Positions 6,523 through 21,438 of a stretch of DNA of 47,228 nucleotides are shown piece after piece. Under the pieces are notes generated by a model. The model was given only the letters and a program-made list of their open reading frames with translations, was not told where the DNA came from and ran no database searches. The position numbers were made by a program, and so were the translations under genes. Source of the stretch: Betaproteobacteria bacterium (lineage in GTDB: Bacteria > Pseudomonadota > Gammaproteobacteria > Burkholderiales > Rhodocyclaceae); the NCBI GenBank assembly GCA_012026675.1, contig VEPA01000067.1, positions 1-47,228 on the forward strand, given 5' to 3'. Numbering within the stretch: position 1 is the stretch's first letter; each line of letters begins with the position of its first letter.

Positions 6523-6537
6523 TCATGATTTTCATGA
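6523..6537 (+). promoter_or_regulatory. Candidate operator, site A of three (TCATGA-N3-TCATGA)
   Basis: Two copies of the palindrome TCATGA are separated by TTT. The same 15-mer in reverse complement occurs at 17800-17814 and 21424-21438. This site is 187 bases upstream of the yceI-like gene in the transcription direction. Exact triple occurrence, intergenic position in all cases and symmetry point to a regulator-binding site, most simply for one of the NarL-type regulators of the island. Confidence 0.6.
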
Positions 6538-6723
6538 TTTGGCTTTGCTCATGCCTCGCAGCCGAACTCCCGGCCTAGGATTCGCTCCACTGATCATGTT
6601 CTCCTGTCTTTCACCCGTTTCAACGATTATGCTTGGCAGCCAACCCGCCCTCCTGTTCCTGTATCGCGTGGCAACCGCCCCTGGACTTGGCGTCGCCAAT
6701 CCACACCTCAAAGAAAAATCAAG

Positions 6724-7296
6724 ATGAACCGATTCCTTCGCAGAACTGCAGGGGTGATTGCCGCGACACTTTGCGGCAGCGTCTGGGCCGAGAGCTATAC
6801 CATCGACCCGCGCCATACTTTTCCTTCCTTCGAAGTCAGCCACTATGGCTTTTCTCTGCAACGCGGACGCTTCAACAAGCTCAGCGGCACGCTCGAGCTC
6901 GACGCCGCGACGAAGAAAGGCTCGGTCGATGTCACGATCGACATGACGTCGATCGACATGGGTTTCGAGGCCTGGAACAAGCAAATGCGCGGCGAGAACT
7001 TCTTCCAGACCGACAAGTTTCCGCAGGCACGTTTCATTGCTCGCGACTTCGCTTTCGATCCCGACAAACCTACTCCGGTCAGCGGCGAACTGACCCTGCT
7101 CGGAGTCACCCGCAGCGTGGTGCTCAAGGTCAGTCAGTGGCGCTGCGCCAAGCATCCGATACTGCCGCGGCAACTTTGCGGCGCCGATCTGGAGGCCACG
7201 ATCAAGCGTTCCGATTTCGGCATGAACGCCAACCTGCCCGGCATCGGCGACGATGTCAGAATTTCCATTCCTGTCGAAGCACTAAAGGACTCATGA
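6724..7296 (+). CDS. YceI-family periplasmic lipocalin-like protein
   Basis: The 190-residue protein has a signal peptide (cleavage about residue 21, SVWA-ES) and the full YceI fold: ESYTIDPRHTFPSFEVSHYGFS at the N-terminus, then GTLELDAATKKGSVDVTIDMTSID, the FFQTDKFPQARF segment and the LTLLGVTRSVVLKV strand. YceI proteins bind isoprenoid or other lipophilic molecules in the periplasm; members next to electron-transfer genes may bind quinone-like compounds. Here the gene heads a two-gene unit with the beta-propeller protein, and the stop and start codons overlap. It lies downstream of candidate operator site A. Confidence 0.88.
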   Translation: MNRFLRRTAGVIAATLCGSVWAESYTIDPRHTFPSFEVSHYGFSLQRGRFNKLSGTLELDAATKKGSVDVTIDMTSIDMGFEAWNKQMRGENFFQTDKFPQARFIARDFAFDPDKPTPVSGELTLLGVTRSVVLKVSQWRCAKHPILPRQLCGADLEATIKRSDFGMNANLPGIGDDVRISIPVEALKDS

Positions 7297-8369
7297 TGAA
7301 ACTCAAGCTTTTTCCCGGTATCCGCCTGACCATTGCCACTCTAGGACTCGCACTCGCGCTGCCGGCCTGCGCCGCAGGCGGCGGCGCCTATGTCAGCAAC
7401 CAGAAGGGCAACATCACCCTTATCGACCTGACGAGTTTCGAACCTGCGGGGGAAATCGACATCGGCGGCGCCTCGCCACGCGGCATAGGCGTCACCGCCG
7501 ACGGCAAGTTGCTTGTGGTCGCTGCACGCGACAAGAGCGACCTCGCCGTGATCGACCTGCAGACTCGCAAGGTGATCAAACGCATCCCAATCGGCAAGAA
7601 CCCCGAGTTCGTCCGCGTGCGCGGGGACCTGGCCTTCGTATCCTTCGAACCCACTTCCGAGGGCGGCCCGCCGCCCAAGCCCGGTTCCAAGGAAGCACAG
7701 GAATCCAAGAAGAAACCAAGCAAAGAGAAGGAAGAGCCGGCACGCGTCGCCGTGGTCGACCTGGTCACCGGCAAGAAAATGATGGACATAGTCGCCGGCA
7801 TGCAGACCGAAGGGATCGAATTTTCGGCCGATGGCAAGAAGATCATCGTCACCAACGAGGAAGACAACAATCTCACGGTGCATGACATCGCCTCCGGAAA
7901 ACTGTTGAAAACGATCGATACCAAGCCCTATGGCAATCGCCCGCGCGGCATCAAGATGTCTCCCGATGGCAAGTTCTACGTCGCCACCATCGAATATGGC
8001 AACAAACTGGTTGCGCTGGATGGCGAATTCAATGTCATCAAACCCGTTGCTACGGGCGAAACCCCCTACGGTGTCGCCTTCAGCCGCGACGGCAGCCGCC
8101 TTTATGTTGCACTGGCCAAAGGCAAGACCCTGCAGGTGTTCGACGCCGCAAGCCTGACCAGCATCGCCGAGCATCCGATCGGGGACCGCTGCTGGCACTT
8201 CACCTTCACCCCCGACGACAAGCACATCCTGGCCGCCTGCGGCCGTTCGGACGAGGTCGTCGTGCTCGATGTCGCCAGCGGCAAGATCATCAAGCGCATC
8301 GCCGACAAACTGACGCCGTGGGGCATCGTGACCTATCCGAAATCCTTCGGCAGCCTGGATACGCCCTGA
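7293..8369 (+). CDS. YVTN-type beta-propeller protein, PQQ-dependent catabolism-associated type
   Basis: The 358-residue secreted protein (signal peptide ending LPACA-AG; the Cys could suggest a lipoprotein but the context is not a clear lipobox) has repeated beta-propeller blades of the YVTN/NHL kind, for example IDLTSFEPAGEIDIGGASPRGIGVTADGKLLVVA and GNRPRGIKMSPDGKFYVA. Propellers of this family regularly accompany PQQ-dependent dehydrogenase genes; the molecular role is not known. A lysine/glutamate-rich insert (about residues 115-148, SEGGPPPKPG... to KEKEEPARVA) lies between two blades and looks like a flexible linker. The ATG at 7293 overlaps the yceI stop (ATGA); the next ATG at 7296 has slightly better spacing to AAGGA. 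Confidence 0.85.
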   Translation: MMKLKLFPGIRLTIATLGLALALPACAAGGGAYVSNQKGNITLIDLTSFEPAGEIDIGGASPRGIGVTADGKLLVVAARDKSDLAVIDLQTRKVIKRIPIGKNPEFVRVRGDLAFVSFEPTSEGGPPPKPGSKEAQESKKKPSKEKEEPARVAVVDLVTGKKMMDIVAGMQTEGIEFSADGKKIIVTNEEDNNLTVHDIASGKLLKTIDTKPYGNRPRGIKMSPDGKFYVATIEYGNKLVALDGEFNVIKPVATGETPYGVAFSRDGSRLYVALAKGKTLQVFDAASLTSIAEHPIGDRCWHFTFTPDDKHILAACGRSDEVVVLDVASGKIIKRIADKLTPWGIVTYPKSFGSLDTP

Positions 8370-8439
8370 GCGCAGGATCCTCAAGAGCGAAGTTCGAAAG
8401 TCGGCGCCGGCGGAACGGCGGCGCGACAACCCGCACTAC

Positions 8440-9315
8440 CTAGCGCGTGGTTTCGCGCCGCTTCAGGTCGGCCCGCGCCGCCGGATAGCCTGCCGCGGCG
8501 CTGCGCTGCAACCACTGTTCCGCCTCTTGCGCGTCCCTGACCTGTCCGGCGCCCGTGCCATACATCACGGCGAGCGCATACATCGCCTCGCCATCGCCCG
8601 CCTTCGCCGCCGTGGAAAACCAGTGCGCGGCGAGCACCAGGTCGCGCGCGACACCACGGCCCGACTCGTAACTCCACGCCAGCCGGGTTTGCGCACGGAC
8701 ATGGCCGGACTCGGCTGCGGCCTTCAGGATTGCGAAATATTCTTCCGCATGTCCTGCCGCCAGCGCCTGATCAGCCCGTAGCACCGGGTCCTTCGCATCT
8801 GCTCCGGTGCTTTCCGCGGCCAGATAGCGCTGCGCCTCGGAATCGCCGGCAGCCGCGGCCATGCTGAAATAGCGCCGGCCTTCCGCGCGGTCCACGGCGC
8901 CGCCGGGAGCGCCGAGCCAATACATGACCCCGGCCCGGAACATCGCCTTTGGGCTGCCCAGCATCGCGCCGCGCCGGTAATAGCCCAGGGCGCGGTCCAT
9001 GTCGCGCGGTACGCCAAGGCCGTCCTCGTAGAGGATACCGAGATTGAAGGCCGCCTCGCCGAAATTGCGCTCGTCGAGCGCTTCCCAGATGCGCTTTGCG
9101 GCTGCGTAGTGAGCCATCTTGAACTCGGCGTAGCCGCGGTAATTGCCGTACTCAGGCCGGCGGACGATCTCCGCCAGATCGATCTCGTCCTCGCCGGCGG
9201 GCTCCGTGGCGGCGCTCGAAACGCCAAGCGTGAAACCGCAGAGCAGCAGCAGACAGGCAGCCATCCGGCGCAGGGGAAAGCACGTCGAGCGAACTGCAGG
9301 CTGACTGGAACTCAT
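8440..9315 (-). CDS. Secreted Sel1-repeat (TPR-like) protein
   Basis: The 291-residue protein has an N-terminal signal sequence (MAACLLLLCGFTLGVSSAA, about residues 18-36) followed by Sel1-like repeats: AAFNLGILYEDGLGVPRDMDRALGYYRRGAMLGSPKAMFRAGVMYWLG, then repeats around residues 150-280 such as AQTRLAWSYESGRGVARDLVLAAHWF. Sel1 repeats form alpha-solenoids that mediate protein-protein contacts, so this is probably a periplasmic scaffold or adaptor. Its start lies seven bases after the end of the gene at 9323-9883, so the two are co-transcribed. It faces the beta-propeller gene convergently. Confidence 0.82.
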   Translation of the reverse strand: MSSSQPAVRSTCFPLRRMAACLLLLCGFTLGVSSAATEPAGEDEIDLAEIVRRPEYGNYRGYAEFKMAHYAAAKRIWEALDERNFGEAAFNLGILYEDGLGVPRDMDRALGYYRRGAMLGSPKAMFRAGVMYWLGAPGGAVDRAEGRRYFSMAAAAGDSEAQRYLAAESTGADAKDPVLRADQALAAGHAEEYFAILKAAAESGHVRAQTRLAWSYESGRGVARDLVLAAHWFSTAAKAGDGEAMYALAVMYGTGAGQVRDAQEAEQWLQRSAAAGYPAARADLKRRETTR

Positions 9316-9322
9316 GGTCGTT

Positions 9323-9883
9323 TCACTCGATTTTCAGTATGGGCAGCCAATGGCTGCGGGGGTCGCCACGACTCAGGTCAGAGTGGCGTATCGGCCGCTG
9401 CCGGCGCTCAGCCGGAACAATATCCGGAGCGATGAACGCATCCATCACAACATCGTTCAACTGGCCGACGATGCCGCTTTCCGTCCACGACATCCTGTAG
9501 TAAATGCCGTTGAAGGGATCGATATGGAGCGATTTCGGGGCGGTGCGCATGAACAGCAGGGCATATTCCAGTGGCACCAGATCGTCGGGCGAAACAAGCG
9601 GCGCTTCACGCTCAACCGGAAAATGGCACAAGCGCTGTGTCGGTCCGGTCAGGCAACGAAACGGGCGCATGGCGAGAAAATACTCTCCAAGCGACTCCTC
9701 CATCGTGATTTTGAACCGCGTCTTGCCCGCCTCTGCCGGCGCGAAGACGATGGTCCCGACCCGGTGCTTCTCGCCATCGGCATTGCTCAGCCAGATGCCA
9801 CGCGTTCCCGTTAGTTCGGCCGCCAGGCTCGCCAGGGGAAGAATCCAGGAAAAAAGCAGTATCAGCAATCGCACGGGGCTCAT
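9323..9883 (-). CDS. Secreted protein of unknown function
   Basis: The 186-residue protein has a clear signal peptide (LLILLFSWILPLASLAA-EL) and a predominantly beta-rich mature part with two Cys residues (FRCLTGPTQRLCHFP). I do not recognise a family. The product is probably periplasmic. The ATG is preceded by AGGTGA. The gene follows the terminator of the PedH-like gene and precedes the Sel1 protein gene on the same strand, so it may serve the quinoprotein system, but this rests on position only. Confidence 0.65.
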   Translation of the reverse strand: MSPVRLLILLFSWILPLASLAAELTGTRGIWLSNADGEKHRVGTIVFAPAEAGKTRFKITMEESLGEYFLAMRPFRCLTGPTQRLCHFPVEREAPLVSPDDLVPLEYALLFMRTAPKSLHIDPFNGIYYRMSWTESGIVGQLNDVVMDAFIAPDIVPAERRQRPIRHSDLSRGDPRSHWLPILKIE

Positions 9884-9910
9884 GGTTCACCTGCCATTTT
9901 CGAAATCAGG

Positions 9911-9951
9911 AAAACGAAAAAGACCGAACACAACTTGCGTTGCGTCGGTCT
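9911..9951 (-). terminator. Rho-independent terminator of the PedH-like gene
   Basis: On the minus strand AGACCGA...TCGGTCT (arms 9945-9951 and 9921-9927), with an inner CAAC/GTTG pairing, is followed by the T-rich tail TTTTTCGTTTT (9911-9920). It lies about 60 bases beyond the end of the dehydrogenase frame at 10010. Confidence 0.75.
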
Positions 9952-9956
9952 CGAAA

Positions 9957-9990
9957 GGAGGCGATCCGCGCTATCGAGCGGATCGCCTCC
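9957..9990. repeat. Perfect 13-bp inverted repeat with 8-base loop
   Basis: GGAGGCGATCCGC (9957-9969) pairs perfectly with GCGGATCGCCTCC (9978-9990). It lies between the dehydrogenase stop codon and the T-tailed terminator and probably stabilises the 3' end of the dehydrogenase mRNA or acts as a first terminator stem. Confidence 0.7.
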
Positions 9991-10009
9991 GAGGAGGAAC
10001 AAACCTGAC

Positions 10010-11752
10010 TTACTTGCCGCTCTTGTGGAGCTTGAAGACCCACATCGAGCCACCCTGGTTCAGGAACGAGACCTTCTTGGCCACATCCCCGCCCCACAGC
10101 GGAACCGCGCCACCCCAGCCAGCAGCGACGCCGATGTACTGCTCGCCGTCCTGCTCCCAACTGATCGGCGGCGCAACGATGCCGGTACCGACGTTGAACG
10201 ACCAGACTTCTTTGCCGGTCTTGGCGTCAGCCGCCTTCAGGTAGCCTTCCGGGGTGCCCCAGAACACCAGACCGCCCTTGGTCGTCAGCACACCACCCCA
10301 CAGCGGAGCGTTGTTCTTGACTTCCCAGACGATCTTGCCGGTCGCCGGATCGATCGCGCGCATCGCGCCGATGTAGTTGTCGTCGATGGTCTTGATGGTA
10401 AAGCCGGCGCCGAGGTAGGCCGCACCCTTCTTGTAGCTGACGGGCTCGTTCCAGATGTCCATGCCCCACTCGTTGGCCGGCACGTAGAAGTAGCCGGTGT
10501 CCGGGCTGTAAGCCATCGGCATCTGGTTCTTGCCGCCGAGGAAGGAAGGCGCGGCGAAGACGGTGGTTCCCTTCTTGCCATCGGCGCTCTTGGCGGGGTC
10601 ACCGGGGCGGTTTGACGGATCGAACTTCGGACTGCCGTCGGCATTCAGGCCGGTAGCCCAGGTGATCTTCTTGACGAAGGGGAAGCCCTTCTGGAACTTG
10701 CCGGTCGTGGCATCCAGCACGTAGAAGAAGCCGTTGCGGTCGGCCTTGCCGCCGAGAAGTTTGCCGTCCTTGGCCTTGAAGGTGACAAACTCGTTCACGC
10801 CGTCATAGTCCCAGCCATCGTTCGGGGTACCCTGGAAGTGCCACACGATCTTGCCGGTGGCGACGTCGATGGCGACGGTGGAGCAGGATTAGAGGTTGTC
10901 GCCGGGACGCAGGGCGCTGTTCCACGGCGCGGGGTTGCCCGTACCGAAATAGGCCAGGCCGGTCTGGGGATCGTAGGTGCCGCCAAGCCAGGTGGCAGCG
11001 CCGCCGGTCTTCCACAGGTCGCCGGGCCAGGTGGCGTTGACGGTACCGGAAATGCCGTTGTCCTTGCCGTCCTTGGTGCCCATGTGGCCTTCAACCGTCG
11101 GGCGCGTCCAGACCATCTTGCCGGTCTTGGCGTCGCGCGCTTCAACGCGACCGAGAACGCCGAACTCGCCGCCGGATACGCCGGTCAGGACCAGCCCCTT
11201 GGCAATGATCGGAGCGGCCGTTGCGGAGTAGCCGGCCGAGTATTCGTCGATCTTTTCCTTCCAGACGACCTTGCCGGTGTCCTGGTCGAGAGCCACCAGT
11301 TGCGCATCCAGCGTGGCGAAGATCACCAGGTTGTCGTACAGGGCGGCGCCGCGGTTGACCACGTCGCAGCAGGGCATGATGCCGTCGGGCAGGCGGTGCT
11401 CGTATTGCCACAGCTTCTTGCCGGTCTTGGAGTCAAGGGCGAACAGGCGGGAGTAGGAACCCGTCACGAACATCTTGCCGTTATGGACGACAGGCTGCGA
11501 TTCCTGGCCGCGCTGCTTCTCGCCGCCGAAGGAGAAGGACCAAACCGGCACCAGATTCTTGATGGTGCTGGGATTGATCTTGGCCAGCGGGACATAGCGC
11601 TGACCTTGGGTGCCGATGCCCCAGGACAACACGTCGCCGGTGGTCTTGGCATCGTTTTCGATATCTTTGTCTGTGACCGTCGCCATTGCGGGTCCGGCAG
11701 CCAGGGAGAACATCGCGCTGCCAACCAGCAACGACATCAGAGTACGTTTCAT
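10010..11752 (-). pseudogene. PedH/XoxF-like PQQ alcohol dehydrogenase, lanthanide type, interrupted by an in-frame TAA
   Basis: Read through the stop, the frame encodes about 579 residues: a signal peptide ([24 protein letters not shown]) and an eight-bladed quinoprotein propeller. Landmarks are the vicinal disulfide Cys pair in PCCDVVNRG, the metal-binding region [10 protein letters not shown], and WDYDGVNE. The second Asp of WDYD, two residues after the catalytic Asp, is the hallmark of lanthanide-dependent enzymes such as XoxF and PedH. Overall similarity to PedH is high ([16 protein letters not shown]-like [24 protein letters not shown]). A TAA at 10889-10891 replaces the Tyr of the conserved RPGDNLY segment. 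The frame on both sides is intact. The ATG at 11752 has AGGAGA upstream; the TTG at 11755 is not needed. A nonsense mutation or a base error are the two readings. Confidence 0.9.
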
Positions 11753-11784
11753 CAAGTCTTTCTCCTAGAGTTTATGATTGATCG

Positions 11785-11802
11785 GACGCGCGCTCGCGCG
11801 TC
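11785..11802. repeat. CG-rich inverted repeat in the PedH-like gene leader
   Basis: GACGCGCG-CT-CGCGCGTC forms a perfect 8-bp stem 33 bases upstream of the start codon. It may be a leader hairpin or an operator half; function not determinable from sequence. Confidence 0.4.
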
Positions 11803-11981
11803 GCCCGAAATCTTACTAGCAATCCCGATGCCAGGTCACGCTATCTAATGAAAAGTCGCAAACTTCCTTTTTAGGCGGCCGGCGATGGGCAGAAATTGGA
11901 TTTTGACAGAAAGTCCTGCTCCAAATATGGGCAGCTGTCCCAGAATGAAACAGTCCATACTCCTGCAGGAAGCGCGAATTC

Positions 11982-12944
11982 TCAATGCGGACGATTCAGC
12001 GTCGCTGCCTCGTAGCGTCGATACAGGTGAGCCACGGATCGCGCGAATTCTTCGCGCGAAAGGGGAATCGCGGCAAATTCGGCCGGTACGGCGAGGCCGA
12101 GCACCTCCGCCATCTCATCCCCGCGTTCTGCCGCCTGGCGCAGGGTGCCCTCCACCCAGCGCAGATAACTCCGGGTCTGCCGGACGGCACGGCCGTCGCT
12201 CACGGGATCGCCATGCCCGGGCACCATCGTGCGATAGCTGATTGCGTCAAGGCGGTCCAGCGCAGCGAACCACTGCGCCACGGTAGCGTGCGGCGTTGTC
12301 GGCGCGCGGTTGTAGAACACCAGGTCGCCGGCGAAGAGAACCCCGGTGCTATGGTCAAGAATTACCAGATCTCCATCCGTATGGCCGGACAGGGCCATCA
12401 GTTGGAACTCGTGGTTGCCGATCACGGTCACACCTTGGCCGACCGTCTCGCGGGCCGGAGTCGACTCGGTACCCTTGATCCAATCGCCGGAAAGACGATA
12501 AACATTGTCGGTAAACGCCGCACCCTCCTGCCGTTGTCCGGCGATCGTCGAGGCCAAAGCGGCCGTGGGTACGTCGGCGAATACCTGATTGCCCAAAAAA
12601 TGATCCGGGTGGTGGTGAGTATTGAAGACGCGGATCACCGGCTGCGGCGTGATCCGGGCGATGGCGCGGCGCATCTGCTCAGCGTAGAGCCTGGACGGAC
12701 CGCTATCAATGACCACTACCCCGTCCGTTGTCACTACGAATGCCGTATTCACGATGTTGCCGCCGTTGATGCGGTTGAAGTCTTCGGTCTTGCCGATCAG
12801 GACCCAGGTATCGTCGGCGATCTTGCGCGGTTCAAGCCGATAGTCCAAGGGTTCAGCCGCCAGATGCGGCGCATGAAGCACAATGCCCAGGATCAGCGCG
12901 GCAAATGCTCTTCCCACCAGATTTCTCAATGGCGCCGCGATCAC
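11982..12944 (-). CDS. Quinoprotein relay-type zinc metallohydrolase 1 (SoxH-like, MBL fold)
   Basis: The 320-residue secreted metallo-beta-lactamase-fold protein has a signal segment (FAALILGIVLHAPHLAA) and a complete set of metal ligands: THHHPDHFLGN (HxHxDH), SGHTDGD, FAGDLVFY and PGHGDPV. It resembles SoxH-related hydrolases found beside PQQ dehydrogenases (quinoprotein relay system zinc metallohydrolase 1). The GTG start at 12944 overlaps the stop of the SoxYZ-like gene (GTGA), so the two are translationally coupled. They are likely to work together, for instance the hydrolase releasing a product bound to the carrier cysteine; that step is inference. Confidence 0.82.
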   Translation of the reverse strand: MIAAPLRNLVGRAFAALILGIVLHAPHLAAEPLDYRLEPRKIADDTWVLIGKTEDFNRINGGNIVNTAFVVTTDGVVVIDSGPSRLYAEQMRRAIARITPQPVIRVFNTHHHPDHFLGNQVFADVPTAALASTIAGQRQEGAAFTDNVYRLSGDWIKGTESTPARETVGQGVTVIGNHEFQLMALSGHTDGDLVILDHSTGVLFAGDLVFYNRAPTTPHATVAQWFAALDRLDAISYRTMVPGHGDPVSDGRAVRQTRSYLRWVEGTLRQAAERGDEMAEVLGLAVPAEFAAIPLSREEFARSVAHLYRRYEAATLNRPH

Positions 12945-13717
12945 TGGGCGACCTTGGCGTTGATCCGGTTGCCGTTGTTGTCGCGACCCACCAGCGTCAG
13001 ACCGGCCGGCGGCGGGCCCGTGAAATCGAACGAGAACACGGGGTTCTCGGAAACGGGCTCGAAGGTATCCAGGGTCATCCATTCCTTCCCTGTAGCATCC
13101 TGCAGCGACAATCGTTCGATGTAAAAGGCGGGAATGCCCGGTGCCAGGCCGGTGTCCATCGGATGCATGATGCTGAGCTTGACCCGGCTTTGCGCTTCAC
13201 CCTGCCAGATACGGGACTGCACCTGCCCCAGGGTTTCAGTCCAGTTGGCGGAACTGCGTCCGACACTCGGTGCGGTGCAGCCGCCACCGCTGGCGTCGAT
13301 CCAGATGCCGCCCACGTGCCAGACACCGTCCGCCGTCTGCGCCATGGCACGCACCGGGCTGCCCTGCTGCAGTTTCATGCGGAAATGCAGGGACGGCATG
13401 GCCCCTTTCGCGGAAAACTCCAGAACCTTCACAATTGGATTGAGGTCGGCGATCACCAGGACCCGACGCACATCGGTCAGGCCCGTTATCCTGATTCCAA
13501 CCGGGACATTCATCGAATCTTCCGCAACCTTGGGCCCGCTGACGACAACCCGCGGATCAAAAACCACCTTTGCCGTTCCCAGATAACGGTCTTTGAGATC
13601 CGTCCATTGAGGCGACTGCAGGGGATCGTCGCCGGTCGCAGCAAAGGCATGGCCGCCACTGATCAGACAGACTGCCGCGACGGCAAGCGCAACGTGCGCG
13701 CCACGCAAACGAAACAT
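12941..13717 (-). CDS. Fused SoxYZ-like thiol carrier protein, quinoprotein-associated
   Basis: The 258-residue secreted protein (signal peptide ending GGHAFA-AT) has a SoxY-like N-terminal half ending in GGGCTAPS, with the carrier Cys at about residue 147. A SoxZ-like C-terminal half follows (IMHPMDTGL...GIPAFYIERLSL). In sulfur oxidation SoxY carries intermediates on a Cys at the very end of the chain; in this quinoprotein-associated type the arm is internal because the SoxZ-like domain is fused behind it. It is the middle gene of the unit pqqU-like, PQQ dehydrogenase, SoxYZ-like, metallohydrolase. The ATG at 13717 has GAGGA at good spacing. Confidence 0.85.
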   Translation of the reverse strand: MFRLRGAHVALAVAAVCLISGGHAFAATGDDPLQSPQWTDLKDRYLGTAKVVFDPRVVVSGPKVAEDSMNVPVGIRITGLTDVRRVLVIADLNPIVKVLEFSAKGAMPSLHFRMKLQQGSPVRAMAQTADGVWHVGGIWIDASGGGCTAPSVGRSSANWTETLGQVQSRIWQGEAQSRVKLSIMHPMDTGLAPGIPAFYIERLSLQDATGKEWMTLDTFEPVSENPVFSFDFTGPPPAGLTLVGRDNNGNRINAKVAQ

Positions 13718-13799
13718 ATTCAATCCTCGCCAGAATTCCAGATAATCCTGAAGCAAGAACGGGGCCGACCAAGCCCCTGAACTCGGCGCGGACTCAAAG

Positions 13800-15608
13800 C
13801 TAGCGGGGCAAGGCGAAAACCACCAGAGCGCCGCCCTGCTTGAAACCGAAGTTAGCGTTTCCGCCGGCGGCGACCGCCACATATTGCACCCCATCGACCT
13901 CATAGCTGACCGGCGGCGCATTGACCCCCGCCCCGCATTGGAATTGCCAGAGTCGTTCTCCCGTCGCAGCATCGAAAGCACTCAGGTGGCCGTCGCCCTC
14001 GCCCGTGAAGACCAGCCCACCGCCTGTTGCCATGACACCACCCACCATCGGCCTGTCCATTTTCTTCTGCCACCGGATACGGCCCTGCTCCCTTGTTGAT
14101 ATGGCCGTCAGCGTTCCCCAGTTCGGTTCTTCGATCGGTTCAAGGGATGAGTAGCGAACAGCTGGCTTGCCGTCGCCGGCTGGAATTTCCCGCACCGAAT
14201 AGCGCGTCGGACTGTGGGATGCGGCGACAAAGGATAACCCGGACGCAGGATCGAAGGCCACCGGGGTCCAGTTCGCGCCGCCAAGGGCCCCGGGCGCCAC
14301 GCGCACACCTTCCGGCGTCGGATGGGCAAACAGGTTGATCTGGGGCACGAAAGGCTCGGATTTGAACAGCAGTTTGCCGTCACGCCGGTCGTGCGCATAG
14401 AACCAGCCCATCTTCGACGCTTGGCCGACCGCAGGGATGCTGCCGCCGGCCGCGGGAATATCGAACAGTACTGGCGGACTAGCCACGTCGTAGCCCCAGA
14501 CATCGTGGGGCACCTGCTGGTAGTACCACTTCAGCGAGCCGGTCTCGGCATCAAGCGCGGCAAGCGACACCGTGTACAAGTTGTCGCCGGGACGCGAAAC
14601 GTCATCCATCTGCGGCGAAGGGTTGCCGATACCGACGAAGAGGGTATTGGACTTTGGGTCATAGGCGGGTGTGGTCCAGGCCGAACCGCCGCCATGCTTG
14701 CTCGCCTCGGGGAATTTCGCCAGAGCCTGCTTTTCTCGGGCGATGTCGCGATTCAGCGGCACGCCATCCGGCGTCGAGCTGCGAAACTCGCCTTCCCAAC
14801 CCGCCTTGGCGATGGTGTCGAACTGCCAGACCTGCCGCCCGGTGTCCGCATCGAAGGCAGCATAAAAACCCGGCCGCCCATACTCGCCGGCAAACCCGAC
14901 CACGGCACCCAGCGGCGCACCCGGTCGTTTGCCTTCCAGATGCAGACCGTAGCCGACGCCGGTAATGCCGATGATCACCTTGCCCTTGATCACGAGCGGG
15001 GCCATGTTCGCCCCGACCCCGGTTGCGCCGGTTGTCGCCTGATTACGCAAGACATCGTCCGCCGCCAGTTGCTCGCCCCGTTCGGAAGGCCCCGTATCCG
15101 TAGCCAAAGGGACATCCCAGACGATCTTGCCCGACTTTACATCCAGGGCAATCAGGCGTGCATCGACCGTACCCATGAAGACCTTGCCATAGGCCACAGA
15201 AACACCCCGGCTGGCCGGCCCGCAGCACATTTTCGTCGTCTTGCGCTTATGCTCGTAGCGCCACAATTCGCGCCCTGTTGCGGCATCGATCGCCGCGACG
15301 TGGTTGAACGGCATCGACAGGTACATGACCCCATCGACCACCAGCGGCGTCGCCTGAAAGGTGGCCACGCTGCCGGTCTGGTAGATCCAGCGCGGCACCA
15401 GCTTCCCGACGTTTTCCCGCGTGATCTGCTGCAGCGGCGTGAAGCGTTGGTTGGCATAATCGCGTCCGTAGCTCAGCCAGTTGGCGCGATCATCCTGCGC
15501 GGCCCTCAGACGGTCATCATCCACCGGCGCGGCAGGCGCGGCTGCAGCGGCAAGCAGAACGACGCAGGGCAGCAGCCTGCCGAAAATACGCAAGGCGATG
15601 ACAGTCAC
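13800..15608 (-). CDS. Second PQQ-dependent dehydrogenase (quinoprotein, membrane-GDH-like active-site segment)
   Basis: The 602-residue secreted quinoprotein has a signal peptide, the vicinal Cys pair in TKMCCGPASRG, the metal-site Asn region GIGNPSPQ, and C-terminal repeats such as GERLWQFQCGAGVNAPPVSYEVDGVQYVAVAAGG. It lacks a cytochrome domain. In the active-site segment PHDVWGYDVASPP a Gly stands where the catalytic Asp is expected (WDxD in related enzymes), while the following Asp is kept. Its substrate cannot be named. The ATG overlaps the stop of the pqqU-like gene by four bases (ATGA), and the SoxYZ-like gene follows after 82 bases. Confidence 0.87.
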   Translation of the reverse strand: MTVIALRIFGRLLPCVVLLAAAAAPAAPVDDDRLRAAQDDRANWLSYGRDYANQRFTPLQQITRENVGKLVPRWIYQTGSVATFQATPLVVDGVMYLSMPFNHVAAIDAATGRELWRYEHKRKTTKMCCGPASRGVSVAYGKVFMGTVDARLIALDVKSGKIVWDVPLATDTGPSERGEQLAADDVLRNQATTGATGVGANMAPLVIKGKVIIGITGVGYGLHLEGKRPGAPLGAVVGFAGEYGRPGFYAAFDADTGRQVWQFDTIAKAGWEGEFRSSTPDGVPLNRDIAREKQALAKFPEASKHGGGSAWTTPAYDPKSNTLFVGIGNPSPQMDDVSRPGDNLYTVSLAALDAETGSLKWYYQQVPHDVWGYDVASPPVLFDIPAAGGSIPAVGQASKMGWFYAHDRRDGKLLFKSEPFVPQINLFAHPTPEGVRVAPGALGGANWTPVAFDPASGLSFVAASHSPTRYSVREIPAGDGKPAVRYSSLEPIEEPNWGTLTAISTREQGRIRWQKKMDRPMVGGVMATGGGLVFTGEGDGHLSAFDAATGERLWQFQCGAGVNAPPVSYEVDGVQYVAVAAGGNANFGFKQGGALVVFALPR

Positions 15609-17716
15609 AGATCTATGCTCGCCGAGATGCCGACCAGATAGTTGCGTTCCGCCGCAGGAAAGTAGAAACGATTATTGGAATCGTTCACCGACACACCGCC
15701 GACATATTTCTTGTCACCGATATTCTCGACGCGCAAAAACTCGGCAAGCCTCACCCCGCCCAGGCGCTGCTCGAACCCGGCCCGCCAGTTGTAGATCGTG
15801 TAGCTCTTGGCCGCATCAGAATTGATGTCATCCACATACACCTTGCTGCTGTAGCGGGCCTCGAGGGCAGTGGCAAACCCGCTCGCGGGATGCTTCCAGG
15901 CCAGTTCCCCGAAGAAGGTATTGGCCGGCGCGCCGGGCAGCTTGTTGCCGCTGTCGATGGTTTTGGTATTGCCCGTGTTTGTGTATCTTTCCGCGAAGTA
16001 CGCATCCAGGTAGGTATAGGCAAGGGACGCCTTCAGGTTCTGGGTCAAGTCGCTATCCACGCCGAGTTCCAGTCCCTTGCGCTTTGTTTCCCCCGCGTTG
16101 TCGTAGACGCTGCGCCCGAAGGTGGTGACATCGACCACGATTTCCTTGTCGGTCTTGACATGGTAGATCGCCGCATTGATGCGTGTCGCATCCCCCACCA
16201 GGGCCTTGACGCCGGCCTCGTAATTGATGCTGGTCGATGGCTGCAGGCCAAAATTCAGGCCGCTCTGTCCGCCCGACCGATAGGCCAGTTCGATGAAGGT
16301 CGGCGTCTCGAAACCCTTGCCTGCGTTGGCATACAGGTTAACGCGCTGATTCAGATGGTAGACCACGCCCAGCACTGGCGTCGTTTCCGTGTAGGTGACA
16401 CTTCCGCTGTCGTCGGGGTTGCCTGCGCCGGTGGTGCGAATGTAGCGGTCGTCGTTCTCGAAACGCACGCGGCTGTAGCGCAGTCCGCCGCTGACGATCC
16501 AGTCCGTGCCGATCGCCCACTCGGCTTGGAGATACTGGCCGGAATTGCTGACGATATTGTCCTCGTCGCGACGCAATACGCCTTTCTGCCCGGCCTTGTT
16601 TTCGAAGCCCTTGCGCAGATCCTTCATGTACTCGTAGTTCAGTCCGAGGGTGACCGTCAGCGGACCTACGCCGGTATCGGCCTTGTGCGACCAGCGCAGG
16701 TCGGTGCCGTAAAAGTCGCGGTCGATGTAGCTGATACCGCCCGAACCCTTGATAACCGCAGCGGCATTAAAAGGAATCGTCAGGCGGCCGAGGGTTTCGC
16801 GCGTCCCGCCCCAGACGACTGCCTGCAGGGTGTCGTTTTGAGTCAGCTGATGCTGGATATTCAGGCCGGCCTGCGTCTGCGCCTTGTTGCCTCCCGCATT
16901 CTGGCTCAGGGTAGACGGAGCAGCGACCTGGCGCGGGTCCGCCTCCATCTGCGCCCGCGTCAGCCCCTGCGGGTCTTCGTTATAGGGCTGGTCGAGCGAA
17001 TTCATGACCAGCGTGACCTTTGTTTTTTCGCCCTGCCACGTCAGCTTGGCATTGGCCTGGTCGCGGCGCACCGCACTGTGGTCGCGGTAACCGTCGCTCT
17101 CGTAGCGCGAGGCATCCACAAGGTAACCGAAGCTGTCGCTGCCGCCTTCCGCCACCACGCCGACTCGCCAGGTATCGTAGCTCCCGCCATAAGTGCTGGC
17201 GGTAACGCGGTGGGGTCCCTTCCCGTCGCGCGTAAAGATCTGCAGCACGCCGCCCGAGGAATTGCCGTAAAGAGCCGAGAACGGACCCCGCATGACTTCC
17301 ATGCGGTCGGCCGTGCTGAGGTCGAAGGTCCCCATCTGGCCCTGCCCGTCGGGCATGGATTGCGGAATCCCGTCCGCATAGAGACGAATGCCCCGCACGC
17401 CGAATGCCGAGCGTGCGCCAAAACCACGGGATGAAATCTGCTGGTCCGAGGAAAAACGGTAGGTATTCGGCGCAAAGATGCCCGGAACCCGCGCCAGGGA
17501 TTCCGAGGTGTTGACCATCGGCTGAGCAAACTGCATTTGTTCCCCGGTAACGACATCGATGGAGACCGGCAGGTCGAAGCTGTTCTGCTCCATGCGAGTC
17601 GCAGTCACCACTACCTGATCGGTGGTCACGCGCGGTTCGGCGGCTTGGGAACAAAAAGGGAAAAGGCCGGCGACGAGGCAGGGCAGCACGCGCAAGCGGG
17701 GGGTGAAATCAGTCAT
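15605..17716 (-). CDS. pqqU: TonB-dependent outer-membrane receptor, PqqU/YncD-like (PQQ importer)
   Basis: The 703-residue receptor has a signal peptide, a TonB box region (DQVVVTATR), a plug domain and a 22-strand barrel ending in an aromatic-poor ISASIDL. Many segments resemble E. coli YncD, the PQQ transporter PqqU: ISSRGFGARSAFGVRGIRLY, DGIPQSMPDGQGQ, RGPFSALYGNSSGG, GYRDHSA, KGFETPTFIELAYRSGGQSG, FGLQPST. It is followed directly by a PQQ dehydrogenase gene and a metallohydrolase unit, which supports PQQ as the ligand over other chelates. Candidate operator site B lies 84 bases upstream. The ATG has no strong ribosome-binding site, so expression may depend on the leader. Confidence 0.85.
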   Translation of the reverse strand: MTDFTPRLRVLPCLVAGLFPFCSQAAEPRVTTDQVVVTATRMEQNSFDLPVSIDVVTGEQMQFAQPMVNTSESLARVPGIFAPNTYRFSSDQQISSRGFGARSAFGVRGIRLYADGIPQSMPDGQGQMGTFDLSTADRMEVMRGPFSALYGNSSGGVLQIFTRDGKGPHRVTASTYGGSYDTWRVGVVAEGGSDSFGYLVDASRYESDGYRDHSAVRRDQANAKLTWQGEKTKVTLVMNSLDQPYNEDPQGLTRAQMEADPRQVAAPSTLSQNAGGNKAQTQAGLNIQHQLTQNDTLQAVVWGGTRETLGRLTIPFNAAAVIKGSGGISYIDRDFYGTDLRWSHKADTGVGPLTVTLGLNYEYMKDLRKGFENKAGQKGVLRRDEDNIVSNSGQYLQAEWAIGTDWIVSGGLRYSRVRFENDDRYIRTTGAGNPDDSGSVTYTETTPVLGVVYHLNQRVNLYANAGKGFETPTFIELAYRSGGQSGLNFGLQPSTSINYEAGVKALVGDATRINAAIYHVKTDKEIVVDVTTFGRSVYDNAGETKRKGLELGVDSDLTQNLKASLAYTYLDAYFAERYTNTGNTKTIDSGNKLPGAPANTFFGELAWKHPASGFATALEARYSSKVYVDDINSDAAKSYTIYNWRAGFEQRLGGVRLAEFLRVENIGDKKYVGGVSVNDSNNRFYFPAAERNYLVGISASIDL

Positions 17717-17799
17717 GGGTCAGGTTCGCAAAGTTACGGGAGCCCGAATTCTCGCCTCCGCGAGCTGAATCTGCCTGCGTGATTAGGCGTGTTGGCTGT

Positions 17800-17814
17800 T
17801 CATGAAAATCATGA
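17800..17814 (-). promoter_or_regulatory. Candidate operator, site B of three (TCATGA-N3-TCATGA)
   Basis: TCATGA-AAA-TCATGA on the plus strand lies 84 bases upstream of the pqqU-like start codon and 23 bases beyond the end of response regulator 2. It is identical to the other two sites. In the direction of the pqqU-like gene it reads TCATGA-TTT-TCATGA, the same orientation as site A relative to yceI. Confidence 0.6.
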
Positions 17815-17836
17815 GTCGCTGCACGGCCACGGCATT

Positions 17837-18478
17837 TCAGGCGTCGATCAGCCCATTTCGAATGGCGATCAGGGTGAGTTCCGCTGCGTTGCCGGCGCCG
17901 AGTTTCTGCTTGATGTTGTAGAGGTGGGTGCCCACCGTTCGCGGACTGAGAAACAGCACGGCGGCGATCTCGGCCACGGACTTGCCGCGCGCCAGCATTA
18001 CGAACACTTCGAATTCGCGTGCGGAAAGGGTTTCCAGCGGGCTACCCGGGCGACTCACCTGTTCGACGACGATTTCCTGCGCCAGGGCCGGTTCGAGAAA
18101 CAGCTTGCCCGCGGCCACCTGTCGAATGGCCTCGATCAGGGCCGCGGCCGCGCTGCGCGTGGGCAGGTAGCCGAGTGCCCCGGCGGCCAGGGCACGCCGC
18201 GGATGAGCCGTGTCCTCGTGCGCGGACAGGACCAGCACGCGTGTCGTGGGCCATTTCGCCAGCAATCGCGAAAGCGCCTCCAGCCCGCCCATGCCGCCCA
18301 TCGACAGGTCCAGCACGACCACGTCGGGCTTCACCTCGGTGAAGCACTGCAGGGCTTCCTCGCCACTGCCGCATTCGGCTACCACGCGCAGATCGGTGGT
18401 GGTATCGAGCAGCAGACGAAATCCCATGCGAACAACCGCGTGGTCGTCGACCAGCATGATGCGCAACGTCGAGCTCAC
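17837..18478 (-). CDS. NarL/FixJ-family response regulator 2, lacking the conserved receiver lysine
   Basis: The 213-residue regulator has a receiver domain (MLVDDHAVVRMG, phospho-acceptor Asp in VVVLDLSMGG) and a LuxR-type helix-turn-helix (LSAREFEVFVMLARGKSVAEIA...LSPRTVGTHLYNIKQKLG). The segment that normally contains the conserved Lys (GYLTK in regulator 1) reads GYLPTRSA, so Lys is replaced by Thr. That Lys contacts the phosphoryl group in typical receivers, so signalling may be altered. The gene overlaps the end of its kinase gene by four bases. It is the nearest regulator to operator site B. Confidence 0.9.
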   Translation of the reverse strand: MSSTLRIMLVDDHAVVRMGFRLLLDTTTDLRVVAECGSGEEALQCFTEVKPDVVVLDLSMGGMGGLEALSRLLAKWPTTRVLVLSAHEDTAHPRRALAAGALGYLPTRSAAAALIEAIRQVAAGKLFLEPALAQEIVVEQVSRPGSPLETLSAREFEVFVMLARGKSVAEIAAVLFLSPRTVGTHLYNIKQKLGAGNAAELTLIAIRNGLIDA

Positions 18479-19692
18479 TCTGAATCTCCTGGCAGGGGAA
18501 GCACGATCCTAACGCGGAAACCGCCCTCCGGGCACGGTCCGGTCTCGAGACTGCCGCCGAGCGCCACGACCCGTTCGCGCATGCCGACCAGGCCGTGTCC
18601 GGATCCCGGCAGCGCGGGCGACGCGCCCCGGCCGTCGTCCTCGATGACTGCTTCCAGCCTTCCGTCGCCGCGCGTCACCGCCAGCCTTGCACGGCTGGCA
18701 CCGGCATGCTTGAGGACATTGGTGAGAGCCTCCTGGACGCTGCGAAATACCGCCAGTGTCAGGGCCTCGCCAAGGTCGCCGAGGTCGCCTTCAAGGTCCA
18801 GTACAAGTTCAACATCCGGATGCCGGAGGCGCCATTCCCGGCCAAGATCGTGCAGTGCCGCGGCCAAGTCCGGTTGCTCGAGGATGGCCGGACGCAATTC
18901 GCGCACGATGCGATGTACGCTGTCGTAGAGCCCGGCAGCGATCTCATTGACCTGTCCCGCGCCCTGAACCACGCCCGGAGCCTCGCTGCCGCGCGCAATC
19001 GAAGTGGCGATCAGGCGTATCGCCGTGACCGACTGGCCGAGTTCATCGTGGAGTTCGCGCGCCAGGCGCTTGCGCTCCGCCTCGATGCCGGCCTCGATCA
19101 ATCGCATCACCTCGCGGTTTTCTGCTAGTTCCTGCGTGGTGGTCACCAGCCGCCGCGCATCGACCTCGGTCGGATGCAACAGGCGACGCAAAAACAGCAG
19201 CAGCGCCGTGTGCAGCACGGCGACAAAGGCCAGGCCCAGCAGGAATATTGCCGTCATGCTGTCCCAGGCATCCAGCACCGCCCGCGAAGCGTCGGGGGCG
19301 ATCTCGATGCGCGCACCGGGCATGCCGATCACGGTCGCCTTGAGTTGTGATCCCATCAGGGCTTCGAACCACTCCGGCGCGCGCCGCCCAGCCTTGTAGG
19401 TACTGGGCGGCGAACTGTAGCGCAGCACGCCGTCATTCGAATAGAGGCGGATGTTATTGGCGCGGACCCGCCCCAGGGCTTGCAGAAAGCTCACCATCAC
19501 CGCCGGCGCCGGACCGAAGACCGGGCTGGTCTGGGCGGCATTGCCCAGCAGTTGCACCGCCACCCGATGCGCGGCCTCGATCTCTTCGCGAATCGAACTG
19601 CGGTAGTCGATAACCAGGAGCCAGGTCAGGGCTGCAAGAAAACCCAGGTTCAGCGCCGCGACGAGCAGGTTGAGCCGCAGCCTCAGACTCAT
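18475..19692 (-). CDS. NarL-type sensor histidine kinase (intact)
   Basis: The 405-residue kinase has an N-terminal membrane segment (LLVAALNLGFLAALTWLLVI, residues 9-28), a periplasmic sensor region of about 140 residues and a second membrane segment (IFLLGLAFVAVLHTALLLFL, about 168-188). Then come HisKA_3 with LARELHDELGQSVTAIR (phospho-accepting His near 226) and HATPase with VQEALTNVLKHAG, EDDGRG and GLVGMRER. It forms the chain tonB-like, metallohydrolase 2, kinase, regulator, with each of the last three junctions overlapping or nearly so. Its ligand is unknown; an alcohol, an aldehyde or PQQ are possibilities from context. Confidence 0.92.
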   Translation of the reverse strand: MSLRLRLNLLVAALNLGFLAALTWLLVIDYRSSIREEIEAAHRVAVQLLGNAAQTSPVFGPAPAVMVSFLQALGRVRANNIRLYSNDGVLRYSSPPSTYKAGRRAPEWFEALMGSQLKATVIGMPGARIEIAPDASRAVLDAWDSMTAIFLLGLAFVAVLHTALLLFLRRLLHPTEVDARRLVTTTQELAENREVMRLIEAGIEAERKRLARELHDELGQSVTAIRLIATSIARGSEAPGVVQGAGQVNEIAAGLYDSVHRIVRELRPAILEQPDLAAALHDLGREWRLRHPDVELVLDLEGDLGDLGEALTLAVFRSVQEALTNVLKHAGASRARLAVTRGDGRLEAVIEDDGRGASPALPGSGHGLVGMRERVVALGGSLETGPCPEGGFRVRIVLPLPGDSE

Positions 19693-20678
19693 TGCCGGCC
19701 CTCGCGTCGGCCGTCCAGATCAAGCCGCTCGATTTCAAAATAAACGTGTTGCACGTTGCGTCCGTGACGCGCGGCGTAACCATGCCAGCCGGAAAATTCC
19801 TGGAGTTCGGCGAGCCGGATGGCTTCGTCCGCGCTGCGGCCTTCCTGATAGGCGACGGATACGCGTTGCTTCAACTCCGACAGATAGCGCCTGATCGGCG
19901 CGATATCGCCTGCCGAACCTACCGGTCCGCGGCCGGGAATCAAAATCCGGATCGGCAGCCCGGCAAGCTGATCGAGTCCTGCGATCCAGCCGCTGGTATT
20001 CGCTTCGGACAGGTGCGGAATCTGTCCGCTGTAGATCAGGTCGCCGGCAAACAGCGTGGCGCTGCCCTCGTCGAACACGGCAAGGTCACCCTCCGTATGG
20101 CCGTGGCCGAATTGCAGCAGTCGCAACTGGCGTCCGCTTGCGTCCAACACCTGCGATGCGGCAACAGTAGTGTCGGGCAACTGAATCCGGGTGGCACGCA
20201 TCGCCTCGTCGCCAACGCTCTGGCGCAAGCTTGCCAGGCAGTTGGGGCAGCGCTCTGCCATGGCGACGGCAGTTGCGGCGGTCGCCAGAATCGGAATGCC
20301 GCGCTCGGCGAAGGCCGAGTTCCCAAGTACGTTCTGCGGATGCGAATGGGTGTTGATCAGCATTTTCACCGGCTTGGGCGTCACCCGCGCCACGGTGGCA
20401 AGTATGGCCTCACCATGGCGATGGTTGGCACCGCTGTCGATCACGATCACCCCATCCCGACCGACGAGGAACCCAGAATTGACGACACGTCCGCCATTTT
20501 CCGGAGTCGCGTCGGCCAGCGGCGCGGGGATCACGAAGACACCGTCGGCAATCTCGTCTACCGGCAGGTTCGCCGGCGCGCCGAGGGCTGGAAGTGTCAG
20601 GCCGAGGAGTGCGAAGCACCACCGCCGGCACTGCGCGAAGCTGTCGTTACGAAGCCAGCCGAAAAACCACTGGAACAT
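19689..20678 (-). CDS. Quinoprotein relay-type metallohydrolase 2 (SoxH-like, MBL fold) with degenerate metal site
   Basis: The 329-residue protein has an N-terminal hydrophobic segment (CFALLGLTLPALGAPA) and an MBL fold: VIVIDSGANHRHGEA, INTHSHPQNVLGN, FGHGHTEGDLAVF, LFAGDLIYSGQ. It carries the CPNC motif seen in the SoxH-like PQQ-associated group 2. The HxHxDH motif reads HSHPQN (Asp and His missing), and the late PGHG reads PGRG, so three usual ligands are absent. Hydrolase activity is doubtful. The ATG at 20678 lies inside the end of the tonB-like gene (32-base overlap), and the stop overlaps the kinase start. Confidence 0.78.
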   Translation of the reverse strand: MFQWFFGWLRNDSFAQCRRWCFALLGLTLPALGAPANLPVDEIADGVFVIPAPLADATPENGGRVVNSGFLVGRDGVIVIDSGANHRHGEAILATVARVTPKPVKMLINTHSHPQNVLGNSAFAERGIPILATAATAVAMAERCPNCLASLRQSVGDEAMRATRIQLPDTTVAASQVLDASGRQLRLLQFGHGHTEGDLAVFDEGSATLFAGDLIYSGQIPHLSEANTSGWIAGLDQLAGLPIRILIPGRGPVGSAGDIAPIRRYLSELKQRVSVAYQEGRSADEAIRLAELQEFSGWHGYAARHGRNVQHVYFEIERLDLDGRREGRQ

Positions 20679-21390
20679 CAACAGTCAGCGAACGTCCGGC
20701 GAGGCTGGCCGGCAACGGCGGCAAAGGTGCCGCTGCACGCACCATGTCGATAGCCTGTCGATCGAGAATTTCATGTCCGCTTGAGCTTACCACGCGCACC
20801 GACTGCAGTTGGCCGTCGGCCGCCAGTTCCAGTTGCAGCAAGGTGCTCCCTTGCCATTGGCGGATTTGCGCCAGGCGCGGATAACGCTGCTGAAGCGCAA
20901 CGGCACCGGCGAGGGTCCGCCCATATGCGGCCAAGGCGGTCGGATCGGGTGTCGTCGGGCGCGACACCGGTGCGCTGGGGACAGGCTGCGAAACCGCTGG
21001 TGCCGGCAGAGGCTCGACCGTAGCTGCAGCAGTGTCAGCAGGCGCCGCTGGAACAACCGGCGCATCGGATATCGGCGCCTGCGCTGACCGGGTCAGCACC
21101 CGCGTTGGAGCGGGCGCATCGGCCTTGCGCGGCTCTTGCGGGAAAGTCGGCGCCGGCGGAACGGCGACCGGCCCCATTACCGGCGCCGGCAGCAGAACAC
21201 GCAACGGCCTGGACATCAGATCCTGCGCCTGTTGCAGGCCCGGCAGCCAACCCAGGGCAAACCCATGCACGACGATTGAAGCCAGGACAGCCCAGACGAT
21301 AGGCGGCTGCCTGAAGCTCAGGCGCGTGCTATCGAGGTACGGCAAGGAGGGGGCAAATGAAGCGGCGTACATTGGATAACGATAGCGCAT
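20647..21390 (-). CDS. TonB energy-transducing protein
   Basis: The 247-residue protein has a single N-terminal membrane anchor (VWAVLASIVVHGFALGWLP, about residues 32-50), a proline/alanine-rich periplasm-spanning segment (about 65-155) and a C-terminal TonB fold (YPRLAQIRQWQGSTLLQLELAADGQLQSVRVVSSSGHEILDRQAIDMVRAA). It energises TonB-dependent receptors with ExbB/ExbD; no exbBD is nearby. Placement in the quinoprotein island suggests it serves the PqqU-like receptor. The start has a weak ribosome-binding site, and an ATG at 21372 is an alternative. Operator site C lies 33 bases upstream. Confidence 0.85.
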   Translation of the reverse strand: MRYRYPMYAASFAPSLPYLDSTRLSFRQPPIVWAVLASIVVHGFALGWLPGLQQAQDLMSRPLRVLLPAPVMGPVAVPPAPTFPQEPRKADAPAPTRVLTRSAQAPISDAPVVPAAPADTAAATVEPLPAPAVSQPVPSAPVSRPTTPDPTALAAYGRTLAGAVALQQRYPRLAQIRQWQGSTLLQLELAADGQLQSVRVVSSSGHEILDRQAIDMVRAAAPLPPLPASLAGRSLTVDVPVVFRLAS

Positions 21391-21423
21391 CCAAGGGGAA
21401 GTGGTCCCACCCGAGGCGCGTTT

Positions 21424-21438
21424 TCATGAAAATCATGA
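21424..21438. promoter_or_regulatory. Candidate operator, site C of three (TCATGA-N3-TCATGA)
   Basis: TCATGA-AAA-TCATGA lies between the divergent tonB-like (start 21390) and NosR-like (start about 21628) genes, so it may serve either. In the tonB direction it reads TCATGA-TTT-TCATGA, the same orientation as sites A and B relative to their genes. It overlaps a larger palindrome, TTTTCATGAAAA (21421-21432). Confidence 0.6.

Follow-up and report, generated by a model that had tools for sequence, protein, structure and literature searches.

The contig VEPA01000067.1 of a betaproteobacterium from the Rhodocyclaceae (order Burkholderiales; assembly GCA_012026675.1) was analyzed over its full 47,228 nucleotides, referred to here as the window. 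It carries a gene island that, according to profile matches of its proteins, probably consists of genes for the use of pyrroloquinoline quinone (PQQ). Dehydrogenases for methanol and ethanol, as well as lanthanide-dependent ones, use PQQ as their cofactor. The subject of this analysis is a 15-bp palindrome, TCATGA-N3-TCATGA, that is found upstream of several genes of this island, together with the regulator that may bind it.

The palindrome in the quinoprotein island

There are three exact copies of the palindrome in the window and no other exact match. Site 1 (TCATGATTTTCATGA, 6523-6537, forward strand) is located upstream of the genes for a YceI protein and a PQQ-associated beta-propeller protein (6724-8369, forward strand; PF04264, and TIGR03866 below its cut-off). 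Site 2 (TCATGATTTTCATGA on the reverse strand, 17800-17814) lies upstream of the pqqU-like gene, between it and the gene for the response regulator RR2. Site 3 (again TCATGATTTTCATGA on the reverse strand, 21424-21438) is upstream of the tonB-MBL2-HK2-RR2 operon. Exact matching and gene calls bear out the original prediction that the three sites are intergenic; all are outside the gene calls and outside the tonB frame. The prediction also noted that the spacer is TTT when the sites are read towards yceI, pqqU and tonB. This is correct for the window, but the orientation is not conserved elsewhere: the central base, read towards pqqU, is A in 14 of 19 non-redundant pqqU sites. A site with one mismatch (TCGTGATATTCATGA, 4672-4686, forward strand) is found inside a small DUF1232 frame, upstream of the unit orf4788-HK1-RR1. 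This site goes beyond the original prediction, as do the position of site 3 before RR2's own operon and the pqqB promoter, which is outside the window and is the strongest member (see below).

Site 2 is followed by a gene for a TonB-dependent receptor (15605-17716, reverse strand). Its NCBIfam match (NF041535) scores 626 bits and does not reach the curated cut-off of 1200; the receptor is therefore named PqqU-like. The quinoprotein genes downstream of it (10010-15608, reverse strand) code for a PQQ dehydrogenase-like protein, a SoxYZ-like carrier, zinc hydrolase 1 and a PQQ dehydrogenase in two frames, and are probably co-transcribed with pqqU. The PQQ dehydrogenase gene (10010-11755, reverse strand) has an in-frame stop codon, with no stop at this place in the six relatives read; decay or an assembly error may account for it. 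Site 3 precedes four overlapping frames on the reverse strand. The first codes for a TonB-family protein (20647-21372; TonB_C), with a likely start at 21372. It is followed by MBL2, similar to quinoprotein relay metallohydrolases (19689-20681; TIGR04559, below cut-off), by the histidine kinase HK2 (18475-19692; HisKA_3 and HATPase_c), the proposed partner of RR2, and by RR2 itself (17837-18478), the proposed binder of the sites. RR2 is a NarL-type response regulator, its Response_reg (PF00072) and GerE (PF00196) domains both scoring over the cut-off. VraR provides the best solved chains in the PDB, and NarL and DevR match too. A NosR-like membrane protein (21616-23775, forward strand; NF046105, below cut-off) is encoded divergently from tonB. 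The second two-component pair, HK1/RR1 (5184-6457, forward strand), includes another NarL-type regulator, RR1 (5738-6457).

The original prediction considered chance very unlikely, and this is supported by the sequence statistics. None of 100 dinucleotide shuffles of the window reproduced three matches. The palindrome is the sole 15-mer that occurs at least three times in the window, both strands counted, and it ranks first among 832 combinations of palindromic hexamer and spacing. The genome assembly (3,576,610 bases in 267 contigs, 86% complete) has four TCATGA-N3-TCATGA sites, three of them on this contig (reversed-pattern control: none); a whole-genome scan thus shows few copies rather than many random ones. 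The form TCATGA-WWW-TCATGA has three exact copies in the 3.58-Mb genome, all within the window. When up to two mismatches are allowed, it is found at 29 places: besides the 3 exact copies, 5 have one mismatch, among them the copy at 4672-4686, and 21 have two. The reversed control gives none. Pairs of TCATGA separated by 0-30 bases occur 13 times in the genome (reversed control: once); four have a spacing of 3, and no other spacing occurs more than twice. The fourth genomic site (contig C255) has the spacer GAA/TTC and is about 0.9 kb from a response-regulator-like frame; no PQQ gene was seen by eye in the surrounding 3 kb, where no profile search was made.

Association with pqqB and with RR2

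Comparative evidence comes from pqqB, a gene of PQQ synthesis. A sample of 399 genomes of the order was searched, and pqqB was found in 75 of them (76 matches). For 74 matches, roughly 1 kb of upstream sequence, selected independently of the motif, was scored; the other two, both from genomes with RR2, are at contig ends and have no usable region. Sites were counted clear of the gene start, as the pqqB start region of one genome (G177) mimics a half-site. The limit for RR2 orthologues (about 320 bits) was set after a score gap had been seen, and a class of RR2-like proteins (273-305 bits) was split off after the first pqqB contrast had been seen. With up to two mismatches, the site is present in 54 of the 56 pqqB regions from genomes with RR2 (28 exact, 21 with one mismatch, 5 with two), in four of seven from genomes with an RR2-like protein, and in none of the 11 regions with neither, which represent 8 families (RR2 versus neither, Fisher 6e-11). 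The site occurs at least once in each of the 15 families with RR2. Conservation in homologous promoters, by which the motif could be judged, is thus evident here as well as at the same-genus junctions described below. In mononucleotide shuffles, about 1.7 of 74 regions contain a match at up to two mismatches.

The contrast is also seen within families. In f10, the pqqB region has one mismatch with RR2 and four without; in f18, three regions with RR2 have two mismatches each and one without RR2 has four. Genome G034, outside the pqqB sample, has RR2 (335 bits) and pqqB, and its upstream region, fetched afterwards, contains a site with one mismatch (TCATGAATTTCCTGA). Among 576 combinations of hexamer and spacing, TCATGA-N3 ranks first in the pqqB regions with RR2 (49 of 56 at up to one mismatch; runner-up 21 of 56). 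The runner-up, CAATTG-N3-CAATTG, was discarded because most of its matches are pqqB coding sequence; 27 of 29 start within 35 bases of the pqqB end of the region.

The genome of the window has its own pqqB (contig C52, 30216-31130). A site with two mismatches (TCATGAAAATCACTA) is located about 310 bases before it, between pqqB and a divergent gene resembling prolyl aminopeptidase, a placement that matches other lineages. CACAAT follows at +45, and the same degenerate right half is found before pqqB in two further genomes (G376, G340).

A search that started from the RR2 protein gave the same motif. In the 80 loci fetched (the best 80 of 543 relatives, from named genomes), TCATGA-N3-TCATGA ranks first among 832 combinations, with 25 sites in 17 loci; the next combination is found in 6 loci. 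Many of these best 80 are from Methylotenera, Methylobacillus and Methylophilus, and a few records, such as Panacagrimonas and Hydrocarboniphaga, are gammaproteobacterial. Of 273 other genomes in a class-wide sample, one matches RR2 at E <= 1e-75, with 282.8 bits, which is RR2-like and under the orthologue level. Across the 399 genomes, RR2 orthologues are present in 62, and exact TCATGA-WWW-TCATGA occurs at 120 sites in 81 genomes (reversed control: one site). At least one exact site is present in 41 of 62 genomes with RR2 versus 40 of 337 others (odds ratio 14.5, Fisher 2e-18).

Several points weigh against RR2 as the binder of an operator. Both p-values are too small because the genomes are related. 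Before the RR2-like class was separated, the counts for pqqB stood at 54 of 56 versus 5 of 18. The RR2 query alignment was built from the RR2s of motif-bearing loci, and orthologue scoring covered about 7 candidates per genome. Two pqqB regions with RR2 lack the site (three and four mismatches), the second belonging to an additional pqqB in a genome where the site does precede the other copy. The window genome's own pqqB site has two mismatches. The exact site is missing in 21 of the 62 genomes with RR2, 16 of which have a form with one or two mismatches before pqqB; it is present somewhere in the 40 genomes without an RR2 orthologue, and at least ten such sites that were read fall in coding frames. 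Finally, the receiver aspartate of RR2 (Asp57) is invariant, while one receiver-domain lysine, kept in seven other aligned copies, is missing in the window copy; regulation of this RR2 may be altered, or the sequence may be in error.

It might be argued that another regulator, usually inherited with RR2, binds the site, as co-occurrence cannot separate RR2 from a constant companion. The homology queries were limited to relatives of the window proteins plus PqqB, PqqC and prolyl aminopeptidase. In genome G060, the site before pqqB is 35 kb from RR2, which leaves room for such a companion and also means that the link between site and RR2 is not one of mere neighbourhood. In the clusters read, the regulatory pair that recurs next to the sites is HK2-RR2, and we consider an accompanying regulator improbable.

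The original prediction named the two NarL-type regulators of the window as possible binders. RR2 is by far the best candidate. RR1 belongs to the same family and adjoins site 1, which speaks for it. Among the RR2-fetched loci with a site at up to one mismatch, however, the sole separate match to RR1 is only 27% identical (L162), and RR1's own unit carries a site in relatives. Same-genus stretches, which were fetched because they hold the motif, have exact counterparts of the copy at 4672 next to a sigma54-dependent activator gene (L040, L042, L047, L053). In L042 and L047, orf4788-HK1-RR1 follows this site, and RR1 therefore looks like a target; in L040 and L053, no HK1/RR1 match was seen after it. 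Binding by RR1 is quite unlikely. The assignment to RR2 is strong but indirect.

Promoter layout and the proposed mechanism

The sites are at a fixed position relative to promoter elements. Offsets were counted from the first base after the 15-mer, and a -10-like hexamer was defined as TATAAT with up to two mismatches. The table of promoters comprised sites with up to one mismatch from the first 60 of the 74 pqqB regions (51 sites, 42 non-redundant) and hand-picked sites before pqqU (22, 19 non-redundant) and on the tonB side (25, 24 non-redundant). Many of the pqqU and tonB-side sites were fetched for holding the motif; a selection free of it, the query alignment aside, was made for the pqqB and RR2 tests only. 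A -10-like hexamer is found at +46 after 14 of 42 pqqB sites and 10 of 19 pqqU sites (mean per offset 1.25 and 0.44, respectively). On the tonB side, 12 of 24 sites have TANNNT at +38/+39 (mean 0.31 per offset). A TANNNT is positioned 12-14 bases before an ATG with an open frame in 13 of 25 tonB-side segments, the distance being exactly 12 in 10 of these 13. Leaderless mRNA is therefore predicted for tonB in the window and several relatives.

In the window, the predicted -10 elements are TAGGAT 38 bases after site 1 (6576-6581, forward strand; TAGGAT is at the same place in L043, L045 and L047), GAGAAT 46 bases after site 2 (17748-17753, reverse strand) and TATCGT 39 bases after site 3 (21379-21384, reverse strand), the last starting 12 bases before the likely tonB start. 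The original prediction included the NosR-like gene in the regulon. Its control is unproven, because only towards tonB was a promoter at a fixed distance detected; the link between PQQ uptake, the TonB motor and the YceI/propeller pair stands.

The palindrome extends into its flanks, with C on the 5' side in 35 of 42 pqqB and 19 of 19 pqqU sites and G on the 3' side in 33 of 42 and 17 of 19. The full C...G pair is absent at the three window sites. A second block is found between site and -10, with TT at +7/+8 followed by a GATTTT-like stretch at +12 to +17 (pqqB) or TTT at +15 to +17 (pqqU); it might be a weaker operator half. A -35-like hexamer 15-19 bases before +46 is found in 10 of 51 pqqB and 0 of 22 pqqU segments. 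One feature adds to the points against listed above: 10 of 19 pqqU sites have a TTGACA-like hexamer at +16. It is not a -35 box because it is 24 bases from the -10, and it is unexplained unless it belongs to the second half-match.

A sigma54-dependent activator encoded in the island (2188-4329) could use the palindrome as its upstream activating site. Such activators bind palindromes, and sites are found near the activator gene in relatives. A search for sigma54-type promoters in 85 non-redundant segments gave, however, one match (G060, at +52), and the sites keep fixed distances to sigma70-like -10 boxes. No homologue of the activator turned up in site-bearing loci with an RR2 less than 70% identical to that of the window. 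We regard this as very unlikely. That the palindrome is a chance, repeat or restriction-type sequence without a regulatory role, as a TGT-spacer version that recurs in the genus (inside a conserved coding frame in the three copies read) might suggest, is contradicted already by the pqqB contrast, and also by the shuffles, position, spacing and RR2 association, and can practically be dismissed.

We thus return to RR2. From sequence comparison, it is very likely that CTCATGA-WWW-TCATGAG is the operator of a PQQ regulon, to which a dimer of phosphorylated RR2 would bind, activating sigma70-type promoters with a poor -35 box. Binding and phosphorylation are inferred, and for the direction of control we infer activation from the promoter layout. 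At pqqU and pqqB, the distance from the centre of the site to the -10 would be about 54 bases, which puts the centre at about -66 from the start; a second, degenerate half-match is found between them. At tonB and yceI, this distance would be about 46 bases and the centre at about -58. HK2-RR2 would activate PQQ import (pqqU), the quinoproteins behind pqqU and the TonB motor, as well as PQQ synthesis where this is present. Since HK2 and RR2 are encoded in the tonB operon behind site 3, the system would also activate its own operon. RR1 would be a second-tier target. As to the signal of HK2, PQQ or alcohol supply are guesses.

Proposed regulon members and related systems

In other families, a common cluster has a site between the divergent genes pqqC-pqqB and (TonB), prolyl aminopeptidase, HK2 and RR2, with another site between RR2 and pqqU (L142, L150, L158). 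It occurs without pqqU in L192, L201 and L208, and Panacagrimonas perspica DSM 26377 (L144) has the same layout, seen with pqqC.

The picture differs in the genus of the window. RR2 is present in 13 of 31 genomes (the window's included), and pqqB in one of 31, the window's own; there is no pqqB match in the other 12 genomes with RR2. The window genome may have gained pqqB, the others may have lost it, or the contig may be mis-binned. All eight stretches that cover the junction between RR2 and pqqU have the site (L034, L037, L039, L041, L043, L044, L045, L046). The receptor behind it is 93% identical to that of the window in L044 and is a paralogue (45-49%) in the other seven, while RR2 identity stays at 88-94%. 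To judge from these identities, the receptor appears to have been replaced behind a constant operator. The tonB-NosR junction has an exact site in L034, L039, L041 and L044 and a site with one mismatch in G001 (L136); no exact site is present at this junction in L045 and L046. We claim no association of site and RR2 within the genus.

The segment 3' of site 1 resembles those of relatives, where the site precedes a second receptor-yceI-propeller unit. In L037, L043, L045 and L047, the sequence behind the site is similar to it and has a TAGGAT-like box at +38. In seven sister genomes (L034/L035, L037, L039/L040, L042, L043, L045, L053), another TonB-dependent receptor, 22-29% similar to PqqU, is encoded between the site and the yceI/propeller genes; the window lacks it.

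Some same-genus sites were not accepted as regulon members. TGT-spacer sites occur in many of these genomes, among the matches listed, and were rejected on the basis of the three copies read (L036, L051, L052), which are inside a conserved coding frame; this frame has no Pfam family in its L052 copy. A TTT site of G003 (L048) is inside a SCO1/SenC-like frame.

Sites found in further families extend the list of possible targets. Sites about 55-100 bases in front of genes for DUF1800 proteins (L087, L110, L111; GAGAAT at +46 in L111) make these candidates for a PQQ-linked role. In G347 (L102:5026), a site had been taken to lie before a PQQ dehydrogenase gene (methanol/ethanol-type). This was withdrawn upon re-reading: the site is 3' of this gene and of a terminator-like hairpin, about 155 bases before genes for a MoxJ-like protein and a cytochrome. 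It is possible that the partners of the dehydrogenase are controlled separately. In family f25, an exact site precedes a gene for a small protein without a Pfam match (L100:5351, L108:5261); the L108 protein was scanned against NCBIfam, too.

Lineages without PQQ synthesis would keep the operator on import and quinoprotein genes, so that the operator stays while its targets turn over, as with the paralogous receptor, the DUF1800 genes and the MoxJ-cytochrome pair. On balance, we favour the view that one operator and one two-component system coordinate the making, importing and using of PQQ across much of the Burkholderiales.

AgmR is also called ErbR. This regulator, PedR2 and MxaB/MxbDM/MxcQE were compared with RR2 through their published descriptions. 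Together with CrbR, they are the nearest analogues, and the site is not given for any of them in the available passages. In Pseudomonas, control of the pqq operon by AgmR is called "likely"; AgmR would, like RR2, regulate PQQ synthesis together with PQQ-dependent alcohol oxidation, but no operator is given in the available passages, whereas here an operator is defined and uptake (pqqU, tonB) is included (PMC12997753). PedS2/PedR2 of Pseudomonas putida similarly combines a kinase with a LuxR-type response regulator that controls PQQ-dependent dehydrogenases, but it acts as a lanthanide switch of pedE/pedH, and the terms "binding site", "motif" and "palindrom" are absent from the main text (PMC6115532). 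MxaB, MxbDM and MxcQE of methylotrophs include response regulators of methanol dehydrogenase; they were studied in Methylobacterium and Methylomicrobium, in a main text without "binding site" or "palindrom" (PMC5018670). CrbS/CrbR also has a LuxR-type response regulator, whose inverted-repeat operator, conserved in many species, lies directly before a sigma70 (RpoD) promoter (PMC5715377). Its ACTU motif has, however, another sequence (e.g., TACTACCATCGTCGAAT) and serves acetate-use genes; TCATGA-N3-TCATGA does not agree with the ACTU consensus, as judged from the ACTU sequences given there (PMC5715377).

PqqU is a high-affinity PQQ importer (PMC12124388), which the receptor behind site 2 resembles by profile. 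A survey, in the parts available, concludes by inference that pqqU is generally "regulated independently" of the synthesis operon, four Burkholderiales genomes being excepted (PMC12124388). In contrast, one operator is shared by pqqU and pqqB in several families of the Burkholderiales, which makes the contrary of independent regulation directly testable. The literature search found no defined control site for PQQ synthesis and import in Betaproteobacteria, no paper with the 15-mer in the forms tried, and none combining TCATGA with PQQ, a response regulator and a promoter. The palindrome is well explained as a real regulatory element, the operator of a PQQ regulon that we did not find described. 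It points to a regulator and can serve as a sequence tag in the search for more PQQ-linked genes, those for the DUF1800 proteins being an example.

By profile, the island also codes for a MoxJ-like binding protein (below cut-off) and cytochrome c550 PedF. It has two PQQ dehydrogenase-like proteins and two relay metallohydrolases, one above and one below the cut-off. Two observations concern the sigma54-dependent activator. A site with one mismatch (L216:4020, contig C144 of the window's own genome) is located about 180 bases before a second such activator, 41% similar to that of the window, and two activator copies adjoin each other in L047 (3707-8685).

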